A stretch of 40,783 nt of DNA from Burkholderiales bacterium (GTDB lineage Bacteria; Pseudomonadota; Gammaproteobacteria; Burkholderiales; Burkholderiaceae_C), in NCBI GenBank assembly GCA_017302505.1, contig JAFLDH010000012.1, positions 1 to 40,783 of the forward strand, in the 5' to 3' direction. The notes beneath the pieces are model-generated. The model saw only the letters and a program-made list of their open reading frames with translations, did not search any database and was not told the DNA's origin. Positions 1 to 12,816 of this stretch are shown piece by piece (position 1 is the stretch's first letter; the number at the start of each line of letters is the position of its first letter). The position numbers and the translations under genes are program-made.

Positions 1-97
1 GGCGGAAGGTCCGCAGGTCGACGAGCTGGACGGTGGACTGGTCGCAGACGACGGCCAGGATGCGGCTGTCCGGGGAGAAGGCCGCGGCGCCGAGGAG
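1..97. repeat. 97-bp perfect direct repeat, copy 1
   Basis: Bases 1-97 are identical to 8621-8717 in the same orientation. From base 98 the copies differ at scattered positions for about 25 bp and then lose similarity. The repeat lies inside WD40 coding sequence in both copies and in the same reading frame. Its left limit is unknown because the window starts there. A repeat touching the sequence end is typical of an assembly-graph repeat, but a recent WD40 gene duplication would look the same. Confidence 0.9.
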
Positions 98-136
98 TGG
101 ACGGTTTTCCGGGAGGGGAAAGGTGGGGGACGCCAT
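1..136 (-). CDS. WD40-repeat protein fragment, runs off the left edge
   Basis: Read leftward, this frame is open from the ATG at 136 to the window edge (45 codons). It encodes a WD40 blade with the motif [13 protein letters not shown] followed by a [10 protein letters not shown] strand. About 35 residues are identical to the WD40 tail at 8442-8921. The frame has no stop between 136 and the GH2 stop at 415, but the residues encoded upstream of the ATG do not look like WD40, so the piece may be a truncated copy. WD40 blades of this kind form the C-terminal sensor/scaffold domain of Verrucomicrobiota and Planctomycetota kinase/WD40 proteins; that assignment is family knowledge. Its C-terminus lies outside the window, so its true length and function cannot be judged. 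Confidence 0.55.
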   Translation of the reverse strand, partial: MASPTFPLPENRPLLGAAAFSPDSRILAVVCDQSTVQLVDLRTFR

Positions 137-414
137 CCGGAGGAGGCAGGCCTCCTCCGGCAGCGTGCTCGACTGGGCGCACCGGATCCGTGGTCCCCGC
201 TTCCCAGGACGATTCCGCTCCCTCTGGGTGGAGGACGGGGCGGGGGGCCGGATCGTCCGGGCTTGTGCCGTGCGGTGGCGCGGTGACCCAGCCCGAGGGC
301 CAGCGGCCCACCCGTCCTCGGGTCCGCCACGAGGGCGAGGCGTCGAATGCCGACACCCGCCCCTTTTGTCCCATGGTGGATGGCGGACCCGGCCGCGACG
401 ATCGCGGGAGGTCT

Positions 415-3400
415 TCACCAGCGGAAGAACCGGTAGGGATCGTCCCATTCCTCCGGGCGGTCCAGGTAGAAGCCCTCCTCCCAGCGGCGCTCGGCGGCCG
501 CGGGGTCGACGCCGCGGGAGAATCGTTCGAGGAACGGGGTCGGCCCGGCGACGCCGTGGTTCGCCAGCAACCGGGAGAGCGCGAACGACAGCCGTCGCCA
601 CGTCCGTTTCACATTCATCAGGTTCGTTTCGGCGAACCGCCAGGGCGTCGGTTGGAAGTACGCCACCCGGCCGCCTTCCGCGAGGCAGCCGTTCCCGTAC
701 CGCCGAGCCCCGCCCTCGACGAGAGGGAGCGTCCGCGGATCGCGACTGTGCAGGTCCGCGGGGCCGATCCCCGCGAAGGGGGAGTCGAGTCCGAAAGGCG
801 CGAATCCGGTCGAGAGGTGCTCCGCCGGGGCGACGGTCGCGGTCAGCCCGGGGAGCGCCGCGAGGTCGGCGCCGTCGAGTCCGAGTGCGAGCACCCGTCC
901 TCCGGTCTGCATCCAGCTCGTCACCGCCGGCGGGGCTCCGCATCCCGGTCCGAGGACGAGCAGGCGACCTTCCGGCGGGAGGGTCGCGGCGAGGGGTGCG
1001 GGGGTGATGCCGAGCGATGCGAGATGCCGGCGACCGGCGTCTTCACCGAGGTACACCGCTTCGGTTCTGGGAGCCGGTGTCCAGGCGGCGGCGTAGCGGA
1101 GGAGGTTGCGGGCGATCGTTTCGGCCACCGGATCCGCCTCGCTTCGTCCGGTGACGTCCAACTGGCACAGGAACACCGCCCCGCGGCCTTCGCGGAACTC
1201 GAGCAGCGGGCTGTATTGCAGGTTGTAGCCGCCTTCGAGAATGGGCAGGAAGTCGCCGCGCGCCGGCTTCTCGACCGACACCGAGGCCACGGTCCCGCGG
1301 TTGCCGCAGCGCCACACGCGGGTCACGGGAATGTCGCACCAGCGCACCGTCGGACCGTGTCGAGGCCGCATCTCGTACTTCAAGCGCGACGGCAGCAGGG
1401 TGGCTTCCCCGCGCCAGTCACGGAGGTGGTCCGGGACCAGGCCGGCCACGACGGGATGATCAGGGATCCGGGCGAACGCCTGCCGCAGCCCGTACTCGGC
1501 GACGCGGAATCCGAACCGCCGTTCCAGCACCTCGGCCGTCTGCTCGAACATCACCACCTTCAGTCCATCGCCGACGCGTGCGATCTCGGGGGCGGGCCCA
1601 TCGACGGCGAGAGCCCGGCGGCCGACGACGAGCAGGTCGCACGCCGGAAGGGGTTGCCCGGGGTCGACCCGAACGGTGGCCAGACCCAGGCGCTCCAGCC
1701 ACGCGCGGGTTTCTCCGGCGGGATCGAAGACCGCGATCCGTCGGTCTTGGGCGACGGGCGCCGGCGCCGCGAGCACCAGGATGTCGAAGCGATCCTCCTG
1801 GACTTCGTCGTTCCCGAAGCGAAACGCGGCGTGCAACGACCGGCGGCCGGGGGGTGAATCGGCGGGGAGCGCGAACTGGACGGGAAGACGCTGCTGGCGG
1901 CCCGTTTCGAGGCGCAGCGACCGGCGTCCGCGGGCCGCGGGCAGCCCGTCGAACGACCAGGTTGCTTCCACCTCCGTCGTCCGTCGCGAGTCGTTGATGA
2001 CGACGAGTTGCTTCTCGACCGTTTCGCCGGGAGCGAAGACGTGGTCTTTGGAGGTGAAGCCCGACGGTTTTCCGGCGATCCATCCCAGCAACGGACGATT
2101 GTTGCGCTCCAGGGCCTCCGACGCCGGGGTCGCCATCCAGTCGTCGCGCCCGTAGGCAAGGTCCACCCGCTCGTAGCGCGCGTCGAGGTAGTCCGCGCTG
2201 AACCCGGGTCGCTGGAGGTTCTCCCAGTCGACCGGCAGCATCTTCCGCCCCCGGTCCACCCCGGGGCGGAGTCTCCAGAAATGCTCGTACTCCCAGGGGG
2301 AGATGGCCGACACCTCCCAGGTTCGGAAGGCGCGCCAGTTGTCGGTCAGGTAGGCGGCGAAGACCGGGTAGCGTTCGTCGAACCGCGGCGACCCGACCGG
2401 GGCGGGGTAGTCCCAGCGATGCCAGAGCCGGCCCTCGCGGAACTGCCGGGCTTCCCAGCGCAGGTTCGCCTGCTCGGTTTCGCTGGCGGGGAACGCGCGG
2501 TCGCCGAGGAACTGCGCGTTCCATTCGGCCACGCAGAACTCCCACGGGACGCGCGCGCTGCCGAACTCGCGTTGGCCGAGATACCATCCACGGTACATCG
2601 TCCAGTCCCAGGTGAACGGGGCTCCGTACTCGCAGAGGTAGGCCGGCTTGACTCCTGCCGTCGACCAGTGCTCAAACCAGTCGGAGAGTTCCTGGATCGG
2701 CACGAAGTTCGGGTAGAAGTTGATGGCGTGGACCGGGCCGAGGTTCCCGGACGCGTGGTGATACACGATCCGCCGGGGATCCTGCGCGCTGACGAGGGCC
2801 TCGGCGCGCGCGGCGAGGCGCGCGTTCCGCGAGGCCCATTCGTCGCGCACGGCGTGGGTGCCGTCGATCAGGTCGGGGTTCATGTCCTCGTGGTAGCCGG
2901 TCGCGTTGTGACTCGTCGCGTACGCGACCACCGACGGGTGGTTCCCCGCCGCGCGCGCATAGAACGCGGCGTGTCGGGCGTAGCCGTTCGTCCGGTCGGC
3001 CTCCGGCGAGGACCAGCGGTAGTGACTGAAGTGCGGTTGCGAGAGTGCCACCAGCATTCCCACGTCGTCCGCCGCGCGCAGGATCTCGCGAAAGCCCAGG
3101 TGCGATCCCGGTTCGCAGCCGTAGTTGTGCGTGTAGACGAAGTCGATGCCGAATCGGCGGAGCCGCTCCAGGCTCTCTCGCGCCGCGTCGTACGTGGCCC
3201 AGGCTGCTCCGACCTGCGCGTTGTCCAACGGGACCGCCGACAGGAATACCCGGGTGCCGTTGAGGTGGAAGTCCCGACCTTCGATCCGGAATTCGCGGAA
3301 GCCGAATCGCTCCTTCCAGAAAACATCCTGGACTGGCGCCGCGTCCTCCGCTCCCGCGAGGGACACCTGCAGTTCGCCGAGGTTCTCCGGGGTGTGCAGG

Positions 3401-4383
3401 TCCCACAGCCGGGAGGGCAGCCACGACTCGGCGGCCGTCAGCCAGCGGTCTTCCGCTAGGTCCCCGCGACCGAAGGGCAGGCTCGAGAACTCCCGTGTTT
3501 CCGTTCCCGGCCCGGTGGCTCGGACTCGGAGGCGCCAGCGATCCGATTCGCCGAGACCCTCGACCGCGGCGCGCACGGTCAGCTGCTTCCGTCGAACTGA
3601 CGTGTCGATCTGCACCTCCGCGATCCGCGGGCCGGTCGGGGTCGCGACCAGGAAGGCGTCGCCGCACAGACCGCGGCGGGCCACCTCGCCCTTCGTTTCC
3701 CGCGCCGCGGCGGTGTCGGTGTAGGAGCGCAGCACGCCCTCGAGCGGCAGGGCCCATACCAGCAGGCTCAACCGGTGGGACTCCCCGGGACGACACGCCG
3801 CCGAGAGGTCCACCTCGCCTCCCGGGAACCGGGCCTCCCCGACCCGGTGGCCGTCGAGGAACACCGAGGCGTACGAGTTGAGGTATTCGAAAGAGGCGGT
3901 GATTCGGCGGCCGGCCCAGTCCGACGGAACGTCGATCGTTCTTTCGTACCACGCGGCCGAAACGCCGCGCAGACTCCGCTCGAGCCAGGACGGATGGGCG
4001 AAGACCGTCTGGCAGTCCTTCTGCAGGTAGTCCGTGATCCCCGGCCAGGGACCGGGCACTTTGAAATAGCCCCAGCCGTGGGTTGGCACGGCTTCCCCTC
4101 CGGCGGCGGGCGCGGCGCTCTCGGCGGCCGGCTGCCATCGCCACAGCCCGTTCAAGCTGACTCGTTCGCGGGTTGGCGTCTTCTCCCGCCAGGCTCGCGC
4201 GGTTTCCCAGACCGCCTTGACCCCCTCGGGGAGCGGGGCGGCGAACGTCAAGTCGCCGGCGGCGGCCTCGGCGCCGACTGCCGCGATGGGAAGTCCGAAG
4301 GCGCACGCAAGGCCGAGTCCGAGTCCCAGAGCGATGCCGCACCAGGTCCCGGCCCGCCGACCGCCCGACGCTCTTCGATTCAT
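415..4383 (-). CDS. Secreted glycoside hydrolase family 2-like protein (beta-galactosidase superfamily), 1,322 aa
   Basis: This is a very large exported GH2-type protein. A basic start and hydrophobic stretch (residues 1-38, cleavage near VGA-EA) form a signal peptide. Then come a jelly-roll sugar-binding domain (about 75-245, with SLNGLWRW, VPGPWPG and WYERTIDVP), an Ig-like domain (250-345) and a TIM barrel (355-690). The C-terminal half carries another Ig-like domain (about 770-870) and segments resembling the amidotransferase-like fold of large beta-galactosidases. The GH2 nucleophile is recognisable as Glu585 in CEYGAP. The usual acid/base Asn-Glu pair after strand 4 is replaced by SHNATG (Asn493-Ala494), so classical retaining catalysis is doubtful. 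Such proteins are common in polysaccharide-degrading Verrucomicrobiota. Substrate is unknown. The ATG at 4383 directly precedes the signal peptide. Confidence 0.8.
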   Translation of the reverse strand: MNRRASGGRRAGTWCGIALGLGLGLACAFGLPIAAVGAEAAAGDLTFAAPLPEGVKAVWETARAWREKTPTRERVSLNGLWRWQPAAESAAPAAGGEAVPTHGWGYFKVPGPWPGITDYLQKDCQTVFAHPSWLERSLRGVSAAWYERTIDVPSDWAGRRITASFEYLNSYASVFLDGHRVGEARFPGGEVDLSAACRPGESHRLSLLVWALPLEGVLRSYTDTAAARETKGEVARRGLCGDAFLVATPTGPRIAEVQIDTSVRRKQLTVRAAVEGLGESDRWRLRVRATGPGTETREFSSLPFGRGDLAEDRWLTAAESWLPSRLWDLHTPENLGELQVSLAGAEDAAPVQDVFWKERFGFREFRIEGRDFHLNGTRVFLSAVPLDNAQVGAAWATYDAARESLERLRRFGIDFVYTHNYGCEPGSHLGFREILRAADDVGMLVALSQPHFSHYRWSSPEADRTNGYARHAAFYARAAGNHPSVVAYATSHNATGYHEDMNPDLIDGTHAVRDEWASRNARLAARAEALVSAQDPRRIVYHHASGNLGPVHAINFYPNFVPIQELSDWFEHWSTAGVKPAYLCEYGAPFTWDWTMYRGWYLGQREFGSARVPWEFCVAEWNAQFLGDRAFPASETEQANLRWEARQFREGRLWHRWDYPAPVGSPRFDERYPVFAAYLTDNWRAFRTWEVSAISPWEYEHFWRLRPGVDRGRKMLPVDWENLQRPGFSADYLDARYERVDLAYGRDDWMATPASEALERNNRPLLGWIAGKPSGFTSKDHVFAPGETVEKQLVVINDSRRTTEVEATWSFDGLPAARGRRSLRLETGRQQRLPVQFALPADSPPGRRSLHAAFRFGNDEVQEDRFDILVLAAPAPVAQDRRIAVFDPAGETRAWLERLGLATVRVDPGQPLPACDLLVVGRRALAVDGPAPEIARVGDGLKVVMFEQTAEVLERRFGFRVAEYGLRQAFARIPDHPVVAGLVPDHLRDWRGEATLLPSRLKYEMRPRHGPTVRWCDIPVTRVWRCGNRGTVASVSVEKPARGDFLPILEGGYNLQYSPLLEFREGRGAVFLCQLDVTGRSEADPVAETIARNLLRYAAAWTPAPRTEAVYLGEDAGRRHLASLGITPAPLAATLPPEGRLLVLGPGCGAPPAVTSWMQTGGRVLALGLDGADLAALPGLTATVAPAEHLSTGFAPFGLDSPFAGIGPADLHSRDPRTLPLVEGGARRYGNGCLAEGGRVAYFQPTPWRFAETNLMNVKRTWRRLSFALSRLLANHGVAGPTPFLERFSRGVDPAAAERRWEEGFYLDRPEEWDDPYRFFRW

Positions 4384-4485
4384 GGTGGTGGCATCCTGTC
4401 ACGAGGCGCTCCCCTCGGGCGAGCCGCCTCCGCGTCGGGTGCACGACGGATTTGTTGAAGGGATGAGTCTTGCTCTCCTATTCGT

Positions 4486-4517
4486 TCATGAGTTCCTAGC
4501 CTGCTAGGTACTCATGA
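4486..4517. promoter_or_regulatory. Long inverted repeat between the lipase-like and GH2-like genes
   Basis: TCATGAGTTCCTAGC (4486-4500) pairs with 4503-4517 across a 2-base CT centre, with one mismatch in 15 pairs. It lies 75 bp after the lipase-like stop and about 100 bp before the GH2-like start, on the transcribed side of both. No T-run follows it in either direction, so a classical intrinsic terminator is unlikely. An operator for a dimeric regulator of the GH2-like gene, or a dispersed palindromic element, fits better. The palindrome is seen; the role is inference. Confidence 0.5.
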
Positions 4518-4591
4518 GCATGACCCCCTCCCCAGCCCAGGCTTTTGCCATCGGCCGCTGAGTCGTACTTCAACCGAATGAACAGACATAC

Positions 4592-7500
4592 TCATTCAAC
4601 CTGGATCACCCGGAAGAACCGGGAACCGCCTGTGGTCTCGATCCGAGCCCGGCGTTGATTGGTCCCAAACACCCGCCACGGGCCCAAGGGGGACTCGCTG
4701 ATTGCCAAATGGCCTCCGCCGTCCCATTCCAGTTCCACAGATCCCCCGTCTGCTCCCGAAACAACCCTGGGTATCCGAAGCTGGGGAGCCGTGGCCCCGA
4801 AGGGCTCCAACTCAAGGAACAACTCCCACCCTCGAATCTCACCGGAGTCCTGCGGAGTATCATCTCCCACCAGAAGACTCCACTCTCCCGCCGCGACCTC
4901 ACCCCGAAACCCATCGAAGCGCGACCGCAGGCTCGTGAACTCGGGATAAACCAGGATATCCTTACCTGGCTTCCGGTCGGTTGGCAGATAGATTCCAAAG
5001 GACGGCGCGAAGTTATCCTTGGGCATCAATCCGTTGGCGTCGTCATCAAACCCAACATCCACCGACCAGACGTTGCCGGCGCTTCCACCCGCGTTGCTCA
5101 ATAGCATCACCACCGTACCCGAAGGACTCATAACCGCAACATCCAGGTCGGACCAATAGTTGTGTCTTATCCCGTGCAGAACAAGCCGCGCCCCCCGCAC
5201 GATGCCGCTTCCGGGAGGAACCCGCAGGCTTGATGGGTAGGGTAGGCCCAGGCCCCGATTCGGAATCGCCACACCATCCCCGCGAAATCTTACGCCGCTT
5301 AGGGTGAATGGAGCGATCACCTGCACTGGTACGGTGGAGACATGGGGTGCCGCATTCTGGTAGAGGAGCTTGAAGTCCAGTGTTGTGACGCCTAGTTTTC
5401 CAGGTGCTGACCTGATCTCCACGGGGATTCCGTAGGGCGAAGGATCACCCATCCGAATGTCCTCATCCCTGATCAGACTCTGGTCTCTGGAGCTGACCAC
5501 CAGTGTCGCTTTGTTCCCATCCGGATCGTCAACTTGGACGAGGCCGGATATCAGGTCGGCCATAAAGAGCTTGGTCGGGAGACTGCGAATATAACTGGGA
5601 TCATCCACCGGAGTTATCTGCAACGGAACCACGCCGACCGACTTGCGCGTGTTGTCCGAACTTGTCCAGTGGATTGGCAAGAGGAACATTCCGTTCGCAT
5701 TGGGTCTTGGTACAAGCTGCAGAATTGCATTGGGCCCCAGATAGCCTAGGGGCAGAACGGAATATCCGGAAGCGTGGTAGTCTGCTCCCGTCGAGTCTCT
5801 CAACCAAAGTTCGCTCACCGATCCGGGATCTGGTTGGATTGGCCCGAGCTCATATACCATCCCCTCGACCGCGTTCAGGCAAAGAGGAACCCAGAACGAA
5901 CCGGCATCCTCCGGCAGGCTGAACATAGGCACTTCCATCGGATAATAGCCGGAGTTCATGGGCCCAGGATCATAGGACCAGCGGGTTTGCTGCGAATCGC
6001 GTATACGGGCCACGAGCCTTTCCCCTGGCTTTGGCGACTGCGCCGGCACCGCTAGTTCCAAGTTGCGCACGCCCTGCGATCCCCGAGGAGAGGCGAAGTT
6101 CGCCAACTCCCGGGATATCCCGTCCAAGGGTGTCTCATTGTCATCATATCCGAGCATTATTTCAGCATCGCTGTCCGGACTCGAATACTCGACGGTAACG
6201 ACCAGGCGCGTGGGAACGGGACTGGGCCGCAGCATGGTCGGAGCAACCAGGCGGATGTTGGGCGAACGCTTTGGCTGACCTTCGATACGGATGTTCCTGA
6301 TCAGGAGGAGTTCCGAGGCGTACGCTCCTTGGAGTTCAAACTCCAAAGTGCTTGTTTGGCCTTCCTTGTCGGCCAGGGACACCGTCAGCGAGCCACTCTC
6401 CGTCTTTGGGAGGTCCCTTAGCAGCAGGTCGCCTCCAAATCCCCGGACAAGCAATCGCGCGTCATCAGCCAGACTCTTCAAAAAGTCGAAGTCAAAGACC
6501 AACTTTGCACTGTCGAGCATCCTAGGGACATAGACCGCATTGTGGATCAGGGAGTCGCTTAACGCATGCAGCAGGAATCCCCTGCCGGGAATGGCAATGT
6601 CCACCAAGGGACTTGGGAGGATGCTCGGAACGCGCCCTCCGTGGTATGAAAAGCCAGCGAGTCGCTGTGCGGTGATATTGTCATAGTTGGGTCCGCCGTT
6701 GGCAATCCAGGAAAGCGTGCCCGGATCGCTGCGGCGTGGGCCACCCGCGACGCGCGACCTCAGCCCTCTCCAGCCCGCGTGATAGAGGCGATTTCCGTCG
6801 CCGAGTCGGCTGTAAGCGTAGCCCACGGCCGCGCGGGGACCCGTTTCCCGGAGGATCGAGTACCACGATTCGACACCACTCTTCTCACCATCGTCGGGGA
6901 CGCCTTCGGTTTGGATGGTGCCATGGTACCAGAGGTGGACATTGCTGTGACGGCCAGTTCGTCCATAGCCCGCTTCGGCAATAAGGTCTTGGGGAAGCTT
7001 GAAATTGTTGGCTCCAGTTATCTCGATCCCGTCAAACTGTAGCACCGAGATGCTCCCATCAGATTCTAACTCAATTATGCCCTCGTAGGCCCCATTCTGC
7101 TGATAGTAGTTGTCCGCGTAGACTACGTTTTTGTATACAATGCCTCCTAATTGTGGGAAGGCATCACGGTCTTGGTAGATATCGATGGATGCGCTCTCGT
7201 TTCCCGCAATCGCAGGATGTGGGTCGAGGGTTGTCATCTGAGCAACCTCGATTCCCAGCGCTGCCAGTCGCCGTATCGCCTCGCTGTTCACGATGCAGCC
7301 TCGGCTGTGGCCGATGAAGTGGAGTGGGAAGTCGACGAATCCGACCCGATTGCCTTCGCCTGCGACTCCCCCCTTCATGAGGGCGACGAAGAGTGCCTCC
7401 CCGGCTGCCTCGGCGAAGCCACCGCCAGGGGCGGAGCTGTCGCGTTTCCAATTGAAGATCAGGACCATTTCCTCCGTCGATTTCAACGGATCACTTGCGC

Positions 7501-7786
7501 CCTGTATGTCTTGAATGATGAACGACTGTAGATTGGGATCATACCGCCATAGGGAAGTGCGCCGCCGAGGGTAGGCCCTTTCGCCCCGTTGAGCGATGGC
7601 TTCGGCCATGCCTGTTAGCCAACCGTCGGGGTTGCCAACGAGCGGCGGAACCCAGCCGTGAGTGAGGATGGTGACGCCGGCCGCCCGGACCGACTGCGGG
7701 ACCAAGGTAATTCCGAGAAGGAGCACCAAGAGTCGAGCCACACCGAGCCGGCCTAGCCACATTGGAACGTCTCGTTCTGACTTCAT
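4592..7786 (-). CDS. Secreted alpha/beta-hydrolase (lipase-like) protein with C-terminal P-domain
   Basis: After a signal peptide (MWLGRLG... to SVRA-A, near residue 36) the protein starts as a lipase-type alpha/beta hydrolase: oxyanion-loop motif LTHGWVPP, nucleophile elbow GHSRG (Ser161), Asp188 in TLDPHP and a candidate His284 in HSNVHLWYH. This is a complete-looking triad. A long beta-rich middle follows. Next comes a proprotein-convertase P-type domain (about 860-1000, with SDLDVAVMSPSGT and GEWSLLVGDD) and a final SPLGPWRVF...SRFFRVIQ segment typical of secreted Verrucomicrobiota proteins. The likely substrate is an ester, but lipid specificity is not shown. A longer frame begins at a TTG (7816); I chose the ATG at 7786, and 7762 is also possible. 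Base composition is visibly less GC-rich than both flanks, which suggests separate ancestry. Confidence 0.7.
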   Translation of the reverse strand: MKSERDVPMWLGRLGVARLLVLLLGITLVPQSVRAAGVTILTHGWVPPLVGNPDGWLTGMAEAIAQRGERAYPRRRTSLWRYDPNLQSFIIQDIQGASDPLKSTEEMVLIFNWKRDSSAPGGGFAEAAGEALFVALMKGGVAGEGNRVGFVDFPLHFIGHSRGCIVNSEAIRRLAALGIEVAQMTTLDPHPAIAGNESASIDIYQDRDAFPQLGGIVYKNVVYADNYYQQNGAYEGIIELESDGSISVLQFDGIEITGANNFKLPQDLIAEAGYGRTGRHSNVHLWYHGTIQTEGVPDDGEKSGVESWYSILRETGPRAAVGYAYSRLGDGNRLYHAGWRGLRSRVAGGPRRSDPGTLSWIANGGPNYDNITAQRLAGFSYHGGRVPSILPSPLVDIAIPGRGFLLHALSDSLIHNAVYVPRMLDSAKLVFDFDFLKSLADDARLLVRGFGGDLLLRDLPKTESGSLTVSLADKEGQTSTLEFELQGAYASELLLIRNIRIEGQPKRSPNIRLVAPTMLRPSPVPTRLVVTVEYSSPDSDAEIMLGYDDNETPLDGISRELANFASPRGSQGVRNLELAVPAQSPKPGERLVARIRDSQQTRWSYDPGPMNSGYYPMEVPMFSLPEDAGSFWVPLCLNAVEGMVYELGPIQPDPGSVSELWLRDSTGADYHASGYSVLPLGYLGPNAILQLVPRPNANGMFLLPIHWTSSDNTRKSVGVVPLQITPVDDPSYIRSLPTKLFMADLISGLVQVDDPDGNKATLVVSSRDQSLIRDEDIRMGDPSPYGIPVEIRSAPGKLGVTTLDFKLLYQNAAPHVSTVPVQVIAPFTLSGVRFRGDGVAIPNRGLGLPYPSSLRVPPGSGIVRGARLVLHGIRHNYWSDLDVAVMSPSGTVVMLLSNAGGSAGNVWSVDVGFDDDANGLMPKDNFAPSFGIYLPTDRKPGKDILVYPEFTSLRSRFDGFRGEVAAGEWSLLVGDDTPQDSGEIRGWELFLELEPFGATAPQLRIPRVVSGADGGSVELEWDGGGHLAISESPLGPWRVFGTNQRRARIETTGGSRFFRVIQVE

Positions 7787-8441
7787 GCTGGGCCTAATTG
7801 CGCTGCAAGATGCCAAGAGGAGCAGTCCTCTTCGAGCATAGCGACATTGTCCTGCCTCTGCAGGGAGTTTGAAGTACTGCGAGTGTGAAGTTCAAGAGCA
7901 GTGGCACTTAGTCTAGTTTACTCTTTGACCGGACGGCTCACCGGGCCTGCGTCCAACGCGGCCGACCCGCGTCGAGGAGTCTGATCTGATTGGGCGCTCG
8001 CTCGCGCGCCGAGCTCACGGATGGACGGGCCCTCCGGCCTTTGTACCCCATTTGCGACCCCGCGGCGCCTTTGGAGAGGCCCATCAGGTCCGCGCGGGAC
8101 CGGCGCTACGGAAGGGGCCCGTTCTCGGGTGTTTTTCAGGCCGCTTAGGGCTGTTGTAGTCATTGGCTATCAACGAATCCCAAGTCTGGCGCGTTTGCCA
8201 TGTCGCCACGCGCATTCACGCGCTGGATAGGATTAAGGCGTTCCCGATGGGGCGCGTCATGGATTTTGGGGTTATTCCCGCGGGGGAGTCCGACGGGCCG
8301 GGGGAGCGGCCTTCCGGATCGGCCGGGATCCCTGTTTCCCAGCTGGAAGAGGCTTCGCCCGCCGTTCCGGCATCGGGCGGATGGACACGGTGCCGTGGAC
8401 CCGGGAGCAGGGGACCCGCCGGCGGGTCGGGCGCGTGGGGG
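7787..8441. other. Intergenic stretch of about 650 bp without a convincing gene
   Basis: No coding frame here has clear family features. A minus-strand frame at 7918-8163 could encode 81 aa (starting MTTTALSGLKNTRERAP) that is rich in Arg, Pro and Gly. Its sequence style reminds me of short predicted ORFs lying in interspersed repeats of Limisphaerales-type Verrucomicrobiota, but this is unverified memory. Base composition shifts from AT-richer DNA (7787-7930) to very GC-rich DNA (7930-8441), consistent with a boundary of an inserted or repeated unit. I saw no clear promoter or terminator. Confidence 0.4.
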
Positions 8442-9686
8442 TCAGGGGAGGGGAGGCCAGTCGTGGTCGAGTCCGAGGTCGCGGAGGCCGCGGCGGAGTT
8501 GGCGGAGATCCCAGAGCTGCAGCCGCCCCAGCGCGCCGGTGCCGGCCAGCCGGGCGCCGTCGGGGGAGAACCCGATCGCCCGGAGCGGGGTCGGGCCGGG
8601 GAGCTGGAGCAGGCCGAGGGGGCGGAAGGTCCGCAGGTCGACGAGCTGGACGGTGGACTGGTCGCAGACGACGGCCAGGATGCGGCTGTCCGGGGAGAAG
8701 GCCGCGGCGCCGAGGAGGGGACGGTTCTCCGGGATGGGCAGGGCGGGAGCGGGGGACCAGGTGCCGACGGCGTGGAGGCCGAAGGCGTCGCCGAAGGTCG
8801 CGAGCCATTGTCCGTCCGGGCTGAACGCGGCCCTGGGTTCGGCGCCGGCGGGGACGACGAGGACGCCGCGGCCGGTGGCGACCTCCCAGACGCGCACCTG
8901 GCGGTCGGCGGCGCTGGCGGTCTGCCGGTCCGCCTGCTGCAGCGCCCAGCCGGCCAGCAGGTGGTCGAAATCGTCGCCGCCCAGCGCGGCGTCGCCGCCG
9001 GTGGCCACCACCTCGAATACGCCCTTGCTCAGGCGCAGCAGCGACACATCGAAGGTGCCCCCGCCCAGGTCGTAGACGGCATACAGGCCTTCGCTGCCGT
9101 GGTCCAGCCCGTAGGCCACGGCCGCAGCGGTGGGCTCGTTGATCAGGCGCAGCACGTTCAGCCCGGCCAGTTGCGCCGCATCCTTGGTGGCCTGGCGCTG
9201 CGCGTCGTCGAAATAGGCCGGCACGGTGATCACCGCGCCGAACAGCTCGTCGTCGAAGCTGTCCTCAGCGCGCTGGCGCAGCGTGGCCAGGATCTCGGCC
9301 GACACCTCGACCGCCGTCTTCAGCCCCTGGCGGGTGCGCACCGCCACCATGCCGGGCTGGTCGACCAGCTCATAGGGCAGCTGCGCGGCGCCAGCCACGT
9401 CAGCCAGGCGACGGCCCATCAGCCGCTTGGCCGAGGCGATGCAGTCACCCGCATGCTCGGCCTGCAGCGCGCGCGCCGCATAGCCCACCTGGCGGCGCTG
9501 GCCGTCCAGGTAGCAGACCACCGACGGCAGCAGCACGCGGCCCTGCGTGTCGGGCAGGCATTCGGGCACGCCGTGGCGCAGCGCCGCCACCAGCGAATGG
9601 GTGGTGCCCAGGTCGATGCCCACCGCGATGCGGCGCTGGTGCGGGTCGGGCGCCTGGCCGGGTTCGGAAATCTGCAGCAGCGCCAT
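8442..9686 (-). CDS. Chimeric reading frame: HscA N-terminus fused to a WD40 tail
   Basis: Residues 1-255 are a normal start of HscA, the Hsp70 chaperone for Fe-S cluster transfer from IscU. The nucleotide-binding-domain motifs are IDLGTTHS (phosphate 1), [21 protein letters not shown] and [11 protein letters not shown] (phosphate 2). At about residue 256 (base 8921) the Hsp70 sequence stops. The rest ([33 protein letters not shown], ending [14 protein letters not shown]) is a three-blade WD40 tail of the Verrucomicrobiota/Planctomycetota type. Missing from HscA are the second half of the ATPase domain and the whole substrate-binding domain, so chaperone function is impossible. The ATG at 9686 follows hscB by 27 bp as in a normal isc operon. 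The fusion is in frame, but a misjoined assembly is the likeliest cause. Confidence 0.85.
8621..8717. repeat. 97-bp perfect direct repeat, copy 2
   Basis: This segment is identical to bases 1-97, in the same orientation and same coding frame. It encodes the blade containing [13 protein letters not shown] in the WD40 tail. Similarity to copy 1 continues imperfectly to about 8742 on the right. The left limit of the repeat cannot be determined because copy 1 is cut by the window edge. Confidence 0.9.
8900..8935. other. Junction between betaproteobacterial and Verrucomicrobiota-like DNA
   Basis: Within this interval the minus-strand protein changes from Hsp70 sequence (GWALQQ) to WD40 sequence (VRVWEVATG). 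The intermediate residues [12 protein letters not shown] contain ADRQ twice, encoded by near-identical bases, so a short microhomology sits exactly at the switch and blurs the break point. All genes to the right fit Burkholderiales synteny. All genes to the left have Verrucomicrobiota-like architecture. No integrase, insertion sequence or tRNA lies nearby. Confidence 0.75.
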
Positions 9687-9713: not shown

Positions 9714-10232
9714 TCAGGCGTCCAGCGCGTCGAGGCGGCGCTCCAGATCGTCACGGAAACGGCGCAGGAACATCAGCGCGCGCACCTGCCCGGCCGCGGC
9801 CTGCGCGTCGCCTTGGGCGTCCAGCGCCTGCTGCAGCCGTTGCAGCAGCGCCTGTTCGTCGCGGTCCAGCTGGTCGTGCAGCGCCTGCAGCGCCGCGGCG
9901 TCGCGCGCCTCGTCCAGGCTTTCGCGCCAGGCCATCTGCTGCATCAGGAAATCGCGCGGCATCGCGGTGTTGCGCTCGGCATCGATCGGCGCGCCGCGGC
10001 GCTCGCACAGGTAGGCGGCGCGGGCCAGCGGGTCCTTCAACCGGCGGTAGGCCTCGTTGACGCGCACCGACCATTGCATGGCCACACGCTGCGCCGCCGC
10101 GCCCTGCGCGGCGAAGCGGTCGGGGTGCACCTCGGCCTGCAGCTCGCGCCAGCGGCGGTCCAGATAAGCCGGGTCCAAGGCGAAGGCTTCGGGCAGGCCG
10201 AAGAGCGTGAAGTCGTCGTCGTCGATGTTCAT
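9714..10232 (-). CDS. hscB: Fe-S cluster co-chaperone HscB (J-domain protein)
   Basis: HscB (172 aa) is the dedicated J-protein that brings IscU to HscA and stimulates its ATPase during cluster release. The N-terminal J-domain starts DFTLFGLPEAF and carries the essential HPD at residues 36-38 (VHPDRF). The C-terminal part (about 80-172) is the three-helix IscU-binding domain. Length matches the family. The ATG at 10232 overlaps the stop of the upstream GNAT gene by four bases (ATGA), which indicates translational coupling. A longer in-frame reading frame extends upstream but has no homology to the family. The next gene downstream is hscA, as expected. Confidence 0.93.
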   Translation of the reverse strand: MNIDDDDFTLFGLPEAFALDPAYLDRRWRELQAEVHPDRFAAQGAAAQRVAMQWSVRVNEAYRRLKDPLARAAYLCERRGAPIDAERNTAMPRDFLMQQMAWRESLDEARDAAALQALHDQLDRDEQALLQRLQQALDAQGDAQAAAGQVRALMFLRRFRDDLERRLDALDA

Positions 10233-10735
10233 CGCGAAAGGCGCTTCTCGAGAAACAGCGACAGCCCGTTGTCGGGGTAGCCTGCGAAAGCCGGCCGATC
10301 GCGATAGCCGGCGCGGCGGTACAGCGCCACCGCGGCCTGCTGCGCGGCGCCGGTTTCCAGCAGCGCGCGGCCATAGCCTTCGGCCACCAAGCGCTGTTCC
10401 AGCGCGGCCAGCAGCGCCGCGCCGATGCCCTGCCCGCGCGCCGCCGGGTCGACCATCATGCGCTTGATCTCGCCATAGGCTTCGCCGCCTGTGGCGGCCT
10501 CGCCGGGGCGGCGACGGAAGGCGCCACAGCCAAGCACCCGGCCCTGGCGGCGCGCCACCAGGAAGCAGATGTCCGGTGCCTGCAGCGCGTCCAGCCCCAG
10601 GATGTGGTTGTGCTGCGGCTCGTACAGCTCGCCCAGGTAGGCGTCCAGCGCCTGCAGCAGCGCGCGCACGGCCGGTTGGTCCGGGCTTTCGCGGCGGATG
10701 TCCAGGGGGGCGTCGGTAAGGGTGGGCGGGGCCAT
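10229..10735 (-). CDS. GNAT-family N-acetyltransferase within the isc operon
   Basis: This 168-aa single-domain protein has the GNAT fold: conserved motif A with the acetyl-CoA pyrophosphate-binding loop RGQGIGAALL, preceded by the strand EIKRMMVDP, and a C-terminal ALYRRAGY segment typical of motif B. Related proteins acetylate small amines, antibiotics or protein termini; the substrate here cannot be read from sequence. It lies between iscA (58 bp gap) and hscB (4-bp overlap), so it is probably co-transcribed with Fe-S genes. This is not a canonical member of the isc operon. The ATG at 10735 gives a normal family length. Confidence 0.82.
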   Translation of the reverse strand: MAPPTLTDAPLDIRRESPDQPAVRALLQALDAYLGELYEPQHNHILGLDALQAPDICFLVARRQGRVLGCGAFRRRPGEAATGGEAYGEIKRMMVDPAARGQGIGAALLAALEQRLVAEGYGRALLETGAAQQAAVALYRRAGYRDRPAFAGYPDNGLSLFLEKRLSR

Positions 10736-10793: not shown

Positions 10794-11117
10794 TCAGACG
10801 CGGAACGATTCTCCGCAGCCGCAGCGGTCCTTCTCGCGAGGATTGTGGAACTTGAAGCCTTCGTTCAGGCCTTCGCGCACGAAATCGAGTTCGGTGCCGT
10901 CCAGGTAGGGCAGGCTCTTCGGGTCGATCAGGACCTTGACGCCATGGCCTTCGAACACCAGGTCTTCGGGCGCCACCTCGTCGGCGTACTCGAGCTTGTA
11001 GGCCAGGCCCGAGCAGCCGGTGGTCTTGACGCCCAGCCGCACGCCCACGCCCTTGCCGCGCTTGTGGATGTAGCGCGTGACGTGGCGGGCCGCGGCCTCG
11101 GTCAGGGTGACGGCCAT
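10794..11117 (-). CDS. iscA: A-type Fe-S carrier protein IscA
   Basis: IscA (107 aa) is an A-type carrier that delivers clusters to apo-targets, especially [4Fe-4S] enzymes under aerobic conditions. The three cluster/iron ligands are present at the classical positions Cys35 (TTGCSG), Cys99 and Cys101 (CGCGES). Family length is 107 aa. An in-frame extension upstream to 11303 lies inside iscU and is not used; the ATG at 11117 is two bases from the iscU stop. The order iscU-iscA is conserved. Confidence 0.95.
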
Positions 11118-11119
11118 CT

Positions 11120-11530
11120 TCAGTGCGCCTGTTCGCTGCCTTCGGGCTGGCCGTGCTTGGCCTTGTAGTCCTGCACCGCGGCCTTGATGGCGTCTTCGGC
11201 CAGGATCGAGCAGTGGATCTTCACCGGCGGCAGCGCCAGCTCCTGCGCGATCTGCGTGTTCTTGATGTCCAGCGCCTGGTCGAGCGACTTGCCCTTGACC
11301 CATTCGGTCACCAGCGAGGACGAGGCGATGGCCGAGCCGCAGCCGTAGGTCTTGAAGCGCGCATCCTCGATCAGCCCGGTGGCCGGGTTGACCTTGATCT
11401 GCAGCTTCATCACGTCGCCGCAGGCCGGTGCACCGACCATGCCGGTGCCAACGCTGTCATCGCCCTTGTCGAAGGAACCGACGTTGCGCGGGTTCTCGTA
11501 GTGATCGACGACCTTGTCGCTGTATGCCAT
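11120..11530 (-). CDS. iscU: Fe-S cluster scaffold protein IscU
   Basis: IscU (136 aa) is the scaffold on which [2Fe-2S] clusters are built from iron and IscS-derived sulfur. It carries the three ligand cysteines Cys37 (APACGD), Cys64 (YGCGSA) and Cys107 (IHCS), the conserved Asp39, and the LPPVK motif (100-104) recognised by HscA. The N-terminus [18 protein letters not shown] is typical. An AGGAG ribosome-binding site precedes the ATG. The gene sits 22 bp after iscS and 2 bp before iscA. Confidence 0.97.
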
Positions 11531-11552: not shown

Positions 11553-12767
11553 TCAGTGGGCAGCCCACTGGATGGTGTTGAGGTCGACGCCGTCCTTGTA
11601 CATCTCCCACAGCGGCGACAGTTCGCGCAGCTTGGCGACCTGTTCCTGCAGCGTCTTGACGGCGTAGTCGATCTCGGCCTCGGTGGTGAAACGGCCGATG
11701 GTCATGCGCAGTGAAGAGTGCGCGAGTTCGTCACTGCGGCCCAGCGCGCGCAGCACGTAGCTGGGCTCCAGGCTGGCCGAGGTGCAGGCCGAGCCGGACG
11801 AGACGGCGATGCCCTTCACGCCCATGATCAGCGACTCGCCCTCGACGAAGTTGAAGGACATGTTCAGGTTGTGCGGCACGCGGCGTTCCAGGTCGCCGTT
11901 GACGAAGGTCTGCTCGATGTCCGCCAGGCCGCGCAGCAGCCGCTGCTGCAGCATGCGGATGCGCTCACGCTCGGCCCCCATCTCGGCCCGGGAGATGGCG
12001 AAGGCCTCGCCCATGCCGACGATCTGGTGCGTGGGCAGCGTGCCCGAGCGCATGCCGCGCTCATGGCCGCCGCCATGCATCTGCGCCTCGATGCGCACGC
12101 GCGGCTTGCGCCGCACGTACAGCGCGCCCACGCCCTTGGGGCCGTAGGTCTTGTGCGAGGCCAGGCTCATCAGGTCGACCGGCAGATTGGCCAGGTCGAT
12201 GTCCACCTTGCCGGTGGCCTGCGCGGCATCGACATGGAAGACGATGCCGCGCTCGCGGCACATCCTACCGATGGCGACGATGTCCTGGATGACGCCGATC
12301 TCGTTGTTGACCAGCATCACCGACACGAGGATGGTGTCCTTGCGCAGCGAATCCTTCAGCTTGTCCAAATCGAGCAGGCCGTCTTCCTGCACGTCCAGGT
12401 AGGTGGCCTCGAAGCCCTGGCGTTCCAGCTCGCGCACCGTGTCCAGCACCGCCTTGTGCTCGGTCTTCACCGTGACGATATGCTTGCCGCGCGACTGGTA
12501 GAAGTGCGCCGCGCCCTTCAGCGCCAGGTTGATCGATTCGGTGGCGCCGCTGGTCCAGACGATCTCGCGCGGGTCGGCCCCCACCAGCGCCGCCACCTGG
12601 CCGCGGGCGCGTTCCACGGCTTCTTCCGCTTCCCAGCCCCAGGCATGGCTGCGCGAGGCCGGGTTGCCGAAGTGCTCGCGCAGCCACGGCAGCATCGCGT
12701 CGACCACGCGCGGGTCGCACGGCGTGGTGGCGCCGTAGTCCATGTAGATCGGGAAATGTGGCGTCAT
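11553..12767 (-). CDS. iscS: Cysteine desulfurase IscS
   Basis: IscS is a PLP enzyme that removes sulfur from cysteine and passes it as persulfide to IscU and to tRNA thiolation partners. From the ATG at 12767 the protein has 404 aa. The PLP lysine is Lys206 (SHKTYGPKG) and the persulfide cysteine is Cys328 ([10 protein letters not shown]), the same numbers as in E. coli IscS. A TTG two codons upstream (12773) gives a longer frame but breaks that register. The C-terminal tail [10 protein letters not shown] is the classical IscU-contacting end. The gene is 49 bp after iscR. Confidence 0.97.
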
Positions 12768-12816
12768 GGTCAAGGGATTGATTGTCGGTCCATGGCCGGG
12801 AGGCCCCGGTGGAGAC

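Follow-up and report, generated by a model that had tools for sequence, protein, structure and literature searches.

The contig described here is very probably chimeric. Judging from homology and composition, an assembler would have joined the isc region of the host to DNA of an unrelated bacterium, inside an open frame that resembles a fusion of HscA with WD40 repeats. This frame is most likely a data error and not a new biological feature. That the join is an artefact, be it a misassembly or a chimeric library molecule, rather than a real junction, we infer with near certainty. A chimera is indicated by the presence of two lineages on one contig, a single sharp switch between them, the occurrence of each gene in complete form among relatives, and the location of the host genes following fdx on another contig.

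The contig (C24) corresponds to the whole stretch of 40,783 nt that was analysed, termed the window in the following. It is one of 552 contigs in a 5.5-Mb genome bin rated 96.57% complete and 2.39% contaminated; these quality figures stay good despite the chimera. A preliminary description, made from the DNA sequence of the window, had already favoured a misassembly. This preference is now supported by three converging lines of evidence and by contig C261 of the same bin, which breaks off inside tsaD. The features of the window are compiled in the table.

Table. Features of the window with position, strand and basis of assignment
Feature	Position	Strand	Basis
Foreign block, most likely from a Verrucomicrobiota (Pedosphaerales-type) order	1..8921		Homology and composition
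Partial second copy of WD40 segment 8621-8747	1..127	-	95% identity, at contig edge
Gene of GH2-like protein, 1,322 aa	415..4383	-	Pfam Glyco_hydro_2_N; foreign relatives
Stretch 82% identical to part of G074 contig C54	4428..4539	+	DNA match
Gene of 1,074-aa protein with P-domain	4592..7816	-	Pfam P_proprotein
Foreign Ser/Thr-kinase-WD40 protein, C-terminal ~160 residues	8442..8921	-	64% identity over 158 aa to G074 protein
Junction interval, best point 8921/8922	8905..8935		Homology ends, WD40 homology start, composition change point 8890
hscA (host), N-terminal ~255 residues	8922..9686	-	Pfam, NCBIfam, alignment to congeners
hscB (host)	9714..10232	-	PRK03578 206.9 bits (cut-off 198); HSCB_C
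GNAT acetyltransferase gene between hscB and iscA (host)	10229..10735	-	Pfam Acetyltransf_1
iscA (host)	10794..11117	-	TIGR02011 168.8 bits (cut-off 150.6), residues 65-169 of 169-aa frame; open frame extends upstream
iscU-type scaffold gene, NifU_N (host)	11120..11530	-	Domain match
iscS (host)	11553..12773	-	TIGR02006 710.4 bits (cut-off 643.2)

The open frame and the switch point

A single open frame of 414 aa (9686-8442, minus strand) encodes about 255 residues of HscA followed by about 160 residues of WD40 repeats. The in-frame fusion noted previously is thus present, and the Hsp70 part indeed stops within its ATPase half. Pfam HSP70 covers residues 21-257 of the frame, which represent only positions 1-243 of the 599 in the profile. 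Likewise, the HscA profile TIGR01991 (NCBIfam) is matched at positions 1-246 of 600 with 371 bits, and the cut-off of 708.55 is not reached. WD40-type Pfam profiles start near residue 250. No kinase match was found in the 414-aa frame with Pfam, so that the frame does not have a kinase-plus-WD40 architecture.

The switch was located from both sides. In 17 of 19 congeners, DNA similarity to their hscA is lost somewhere from 8904 to 8935, and in the remaining two at 8964; for the nearest congener (G021) it stops at 8908, and for order-mates mostly earlier than for congeners. In the protein alignment the window tracks the HscA relatives until about QQADRQ and diverges thereafter. Homology to a WD40 protein of genome G074 opens at 8921, and the 17 identical bases at 8905-8921 are the longest exact run shared at the switch. 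These two homology limits and the change point in composition (see below) converge within about 45 bases. From these limits, two unrelated genes, each cut in mid-gene, are taken to adjoin at 8921/8922, with a margin of about 15 bases on either side. Repeated ADRQ codons had been regarded as a short microhomology at this position. This cannot be maintained, as the switch falls between the two copies and not in an overlap: the WD40 relative has an ADR of its own at the second place, and HscA of the nearest congener has GRQ at the first.

The window contains no Ns, and hence the junction is not a scaffold gap. Neither a repeat of 25 bases or more at the junction nor a tRNA in the window was detected, and the Pfam scan of left frames gave no integrase or transposase. 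The signs of a mobile-element insertion (integrase, transposase, tRNA or a repeat at the junction) are therefore lacking among the frames scanned.

As had been proposed, both halves of the frame were searched separately; the HscA half leads to the congeners and the WD40 half to a kinase-WD40 protein of G074, a genome of the same order as a metagenome-assembled genome (MAG) with a contig named Pedosphaerales. There the gene is whole and encodes 1,088 aa, with a Pkinase domain at residues 74-346 and WD40 repeats up to the end. The tail in the window aligns with residues 921-1078 of this protein (64% identity over 158 aa; 67% at the DNA level). It thus shares the last 160 residues or so of the Ser/Thr-kinase-WD40 protein, whereas the contig has neither the kinase domain nor the other WD40 repeats.

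The host isc region

To the right of the switch all eight congener isc loci compared are collinear with the window, starting at 8904-8964 and reaching 11182 (shortest) to 17750 (longest). Positions 1-8921 have no match in any of these eight loci. The only gene not common to all is the GNAT gene, a relative of which is present in two of the eight (G021 and G023). The HscA part resembles HscA of the congeners in residues 1-255, strand and neighbours (hscB, iscA, iscU and iscS), and differs from it in that the contig contains neither the second half of HscA, with the substrate domain, nor a downstream fdx. In the window hscB precedes hscA. In the congener loci fdx follows a full-length hscA in eight of eight; no match to congener fdx was found in the window, as had been noted. 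From about 8922 to its right end, the contig is assigned by homology to host DNA (iscS-iscU-iscA-GNAT-hscB-hscA and beyond). The preliminary description had attributed Burkholderiales synteny to this side. Its collinearity with the host's congeners is borne out, and the HscA is presumably of Burkholderiales type, as it fits the sequences of that type.

As would generally apply to Hsp70 proteins, an HscA that lacks half of its ATPase domain and its substrate domain should be unable to function. A close hscA is present in 19 of 24 congeners, with 77-90% identity over residues 1-250 and a length of 610-627 aa from the aligned start. Proteins of 610-662 aa, counted from the aligned start, are encoded at 27 of the 29 HscA loci compared from congeners and order-mates; the other two stop short (188 and 195). 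In the order-mate G031 (one contig; locus L032) hscA is distributed over two frames of 202 and 445 codons, which suggests a frameshift or a sequencing error. The remaining five congeners have no close hscA; G004 contains a relative of 64% identity, and G001, G005, G009 and G013 give weaker matches only. For G001, a congener rated 100% complete, the match is of DnaK type, and this may be a real loss of hscA or an assembly gap.

The continuation of the host locus was sought in the same bin. In six of the eight congener loci tsaD directly follows fdx. Contig C261 (5,233 bases) contains tsaD from residue 101 together with the following genes, and ends inside tsaD, which is as expected from an ordinary assembly break. 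In the six congeners with direct fdx-tsaD order, the distance from hscA residue 254 to tsaD residue 101 amounts to 1.72-2.04 kb. The smallest of 47 other contigs inspected (of 551) has 2,507 bases, suggesting a contig cut-off of 2.5 kb for the bin, and the missing piece of 1.7-2.0 kb would be smaller than all contigs inspected. A search of the bin for fdx and the remainder of hscA gave neither, but it was blind to short contigs, as all eight inspected contigs below 3 kb read as N. Since the missing piece may fall below the cut-off or lie on such N-only contigs, the failure to find it is no evidence of loss. The loci of G018 (L141) and G024 (L143) deviate from the other six, with about 4 and 6 kb, respectively, between fdx and tsaD. 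Such a spacing in the host would make the missing piece exceed the cut-off, which counts against a chimera.

The foreign block

The left part of the contig has most likely been derived from a member of the Verrucomicrobiota, of a Pedosphaerales-type order, as judged from its relatives; the Verrucomicrobiota architecture ascribed to it beforehand is consistent with this. No match to the GH2-like protein was found among 24 host relatives, 15 of them congeners, and none to the P-domain protein among 40 host relatives. Within the readable contigs of its own genome, positions 1-8900 match themselves and, over 85 bases with 74% identity, contig C525 only, which also gives the one weak match of the P-domain protein in this genome. 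WD40 matches in the own genome outside C24 are absent. Weak WD40 matches do occur in some host relatives, so that the host's kin is not devoid of WD40 proteins in general.

A scan of named genomes gave 112 loci with GH2-like relatives. By title, the 79 listed comprise 31 of Verrucomicrobiota, 28 of Planctomycetota and 20 others (Armatimonadota, Acidobacteriota and more, one titled Syntrophorhabdus), with best-segment identities of 43-65%; no Burkholderiales title is among these 79. WD40 matches were obtained in all 16 genomes picked from behind these loci (4 to 81 per genome). The lineage was searched in depth in one order, namely that of the MAG contig named Pedosphaerales. In this order, some part of the left DNA has a match in 106 of 320 genomes, in many of them over no more than a few dozen bases, and the GH2 gene gives long DNA matches with 68-77% identity. 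Partial relatives of the P-domain protein occur in 164 of 313 genomes of the order, the best of the matches listed having 25-45% identity. A Planctomycetota source is less likely; the in-depth search covered only the Pedosphaerales-type order. The neighbourhoods of the 79 listed GH2-like loci contain no match to the P-domain protein and a single match to the WD40 tail (33%). As no gene order is shared, a single origin of the left block rests on lineage and composition.

Some minor features of this block are worth mentioning. Positions 1-127 and 8621-8747 form a direct repeat of 127 bases (95% identical), both copies being from the WD40 segment, and the first stops at the contig edge. This first copy may stem from a paralogous gene, from a variant strain or from another edge of the assembly. 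The intergenic stretch 8177-8217 has matches of 88-92% in at least seven genomes of the searched Verrucomicrobiota order and could be a short element that is dispersed or conserved in that lineage. The 112 bases at 4428-4539 contain an internal inverted match and are perhaps the remnant of an insertion element.

Composition and codon use

A comparison of tetranucleotide profiles on both sides, as had been suggested, separates the two sides in part. By tetranucleotide frequency, both left chunks of 4.45 kb are farther from the host than all 68 host chunks, and the seven right chunks lie inside the spread of these 68. By z-score correlation, however, only the second left chunk stands out (0.018); the first (0.434) is within the host range, with three of 34 host chunks being lower.

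A fourth-order Markov model of host contigs was compared with one of 39 GC-rich loci of GH2-like relatives, and the change point was found at 8890. The foreign model fits better in all nine kilobase blocks up to 9000, of which the ninth includes the switch, and the host model in 31 of 31 blocks between 9001 and 40000. Since loci around GH2-like relatives served to train the foreign model, it is not independent with regard to the GH2 gene; no such selection applies to the P-domain and WD40 stretches. In a control with a host model that excluded the first 20 kb of contig C2, the majority of host contigs fit the host model better, while C2 above all and a few others lean towards the foreign one. 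Consequently, a lean in composition alone is no proof of another phylum. The position of the first left chunk within the host range and the foreign lean of some host contigs are counted against a chimera. The host background included contigs that read as N (one of 20 in the z-score set, eight of 45 in the Markov set and eight in the control, where their rows are meaningless); none of them reaches the chunk length of 4.45 kb.

The codon use changes together with the composition. For leucine, the ratio CTG:CTC is 32:0 in the HscA part versus 7:17 in the WD40 part (Fisher p 3.5e-9). The foreign block thus keeps its own codon use and composition right up to the junction.

Origin of the junction

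We propose that the assembler fused host DNA (from about 8922 to the right end) with foreign DNA (from about 8921 to the left end) inside two unrelated genes, and that the join is in frame by chance. Presumably, no cell carries this junction, and the missing 1.7-2.0 kb, comprising the remainder of hscA, fdx and the beginning of tsaD, would reside on a contig too short to be binned or to be readable. Like other chimeric metagenome contigs (inter-reference misassemblies), C24 has flanks of different lineages and a single breakpoint, and the change in composition at 8890 is near the homology switch at 8921. Of the native continuation, the part from tsaD onward is found on C261. In contrast to other chimeric contigs, the breakpoint is in frame and C24 hence resembles a gene fusion. 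According to the figures given for an Illumina mock-community benchmark, 2.63 (SPAdes) and 22.15 (megahit) chimeric contigs arise per genome (PMC11261854), and by these rates such a misassembly would be ordinary. The relevant statement of the GUNC authors, that misassemblies are relatively rare next to mis-binning (PMC8201837), tempers these figures. Two further points have to be counted against a chimeric contig. At most a 17-base run is shared with the WD40 relative at the switch, and the five of 24 congeners without a close hscA, including the G001 genome, may mean that loss of hscA is tolerated in the genus.

A chimeric DNA molecule formed during library preparation or amplification would leave the same signature, a sharp switch with little overlap (no more than 17 bases identical to a relative), and the join would still be an artefact. 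For assembly into a contig of 40 kb, though, several copies of one such molecule would presumably be needed, and we consider this origin improbable. A little less probable still is a real cross-phylum illegitimate recombination in living cells, by which a foreign kinase-WD40 tail replaced the end of hscA and parted hscA from fdx. The junction is in frame and free of Ns, the search of readable contigs did not yield the remainder of hscA, and the lack of a close hscA in some congeners indicates that such a loss might be survivable; the cell would then make Fe-S clusters without a complete HscA. On the other hand, both genes are broken at random in their middle with the loss of most of an ISC chaperone, neither integrase nor transposase genes (left frames scanned) nor a tRNA (window) accompany the junction, the foreign DNA has retained its own codon use and composition up to this point, and tsaD with the later genes lies at a contig end, as with an ordinary assembly break. 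A selected, working fusion of the HscA ATPase with WD40 repeats can practically be dismissed: the frame is open across the switch, but a random join would be in frame in about one of six cases (orientation times phase, by arithmetic), the HscA profile score is far below its cut-off, the WD40 part is merely the end of a larger propeller protein, and none of the 27 full-length HscA relatives aligned has a WD40 tail.

The assembler chimera preferred here serves as a warning more than as a discovery, as joins that happen to be in frame may end up in protein databases, where they would pass for a new HscA-WD40 fusion and for a transfer between phyla. The combination of the homology ends on each side, the composition change point and a search for the native continuation in the same bin is a test that needs no reads.

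Other contigs of the bin

Two further contigs were considered. Contig C525 was suspected to be a further foreign contig on account of the weak P-domain match; its composition is host-like, however. It contains (L218, 3-17249) a frame of 5,748 codons that runs off the contig edge. Long frames on the opposite strand overlap with this frame, and it may thus be a mere effect of high GC content. Contig C2 (L041, L219, L220; 49 kb, GC 0.60-0.63) was considered as a source of the left block owing to its unusual composition, but it has a tRNA-Gly at its start, and relatives give matches to parts of the initial 12 kb. C2 is thus probably a genomic island and unlikely to have been the source of the left block.
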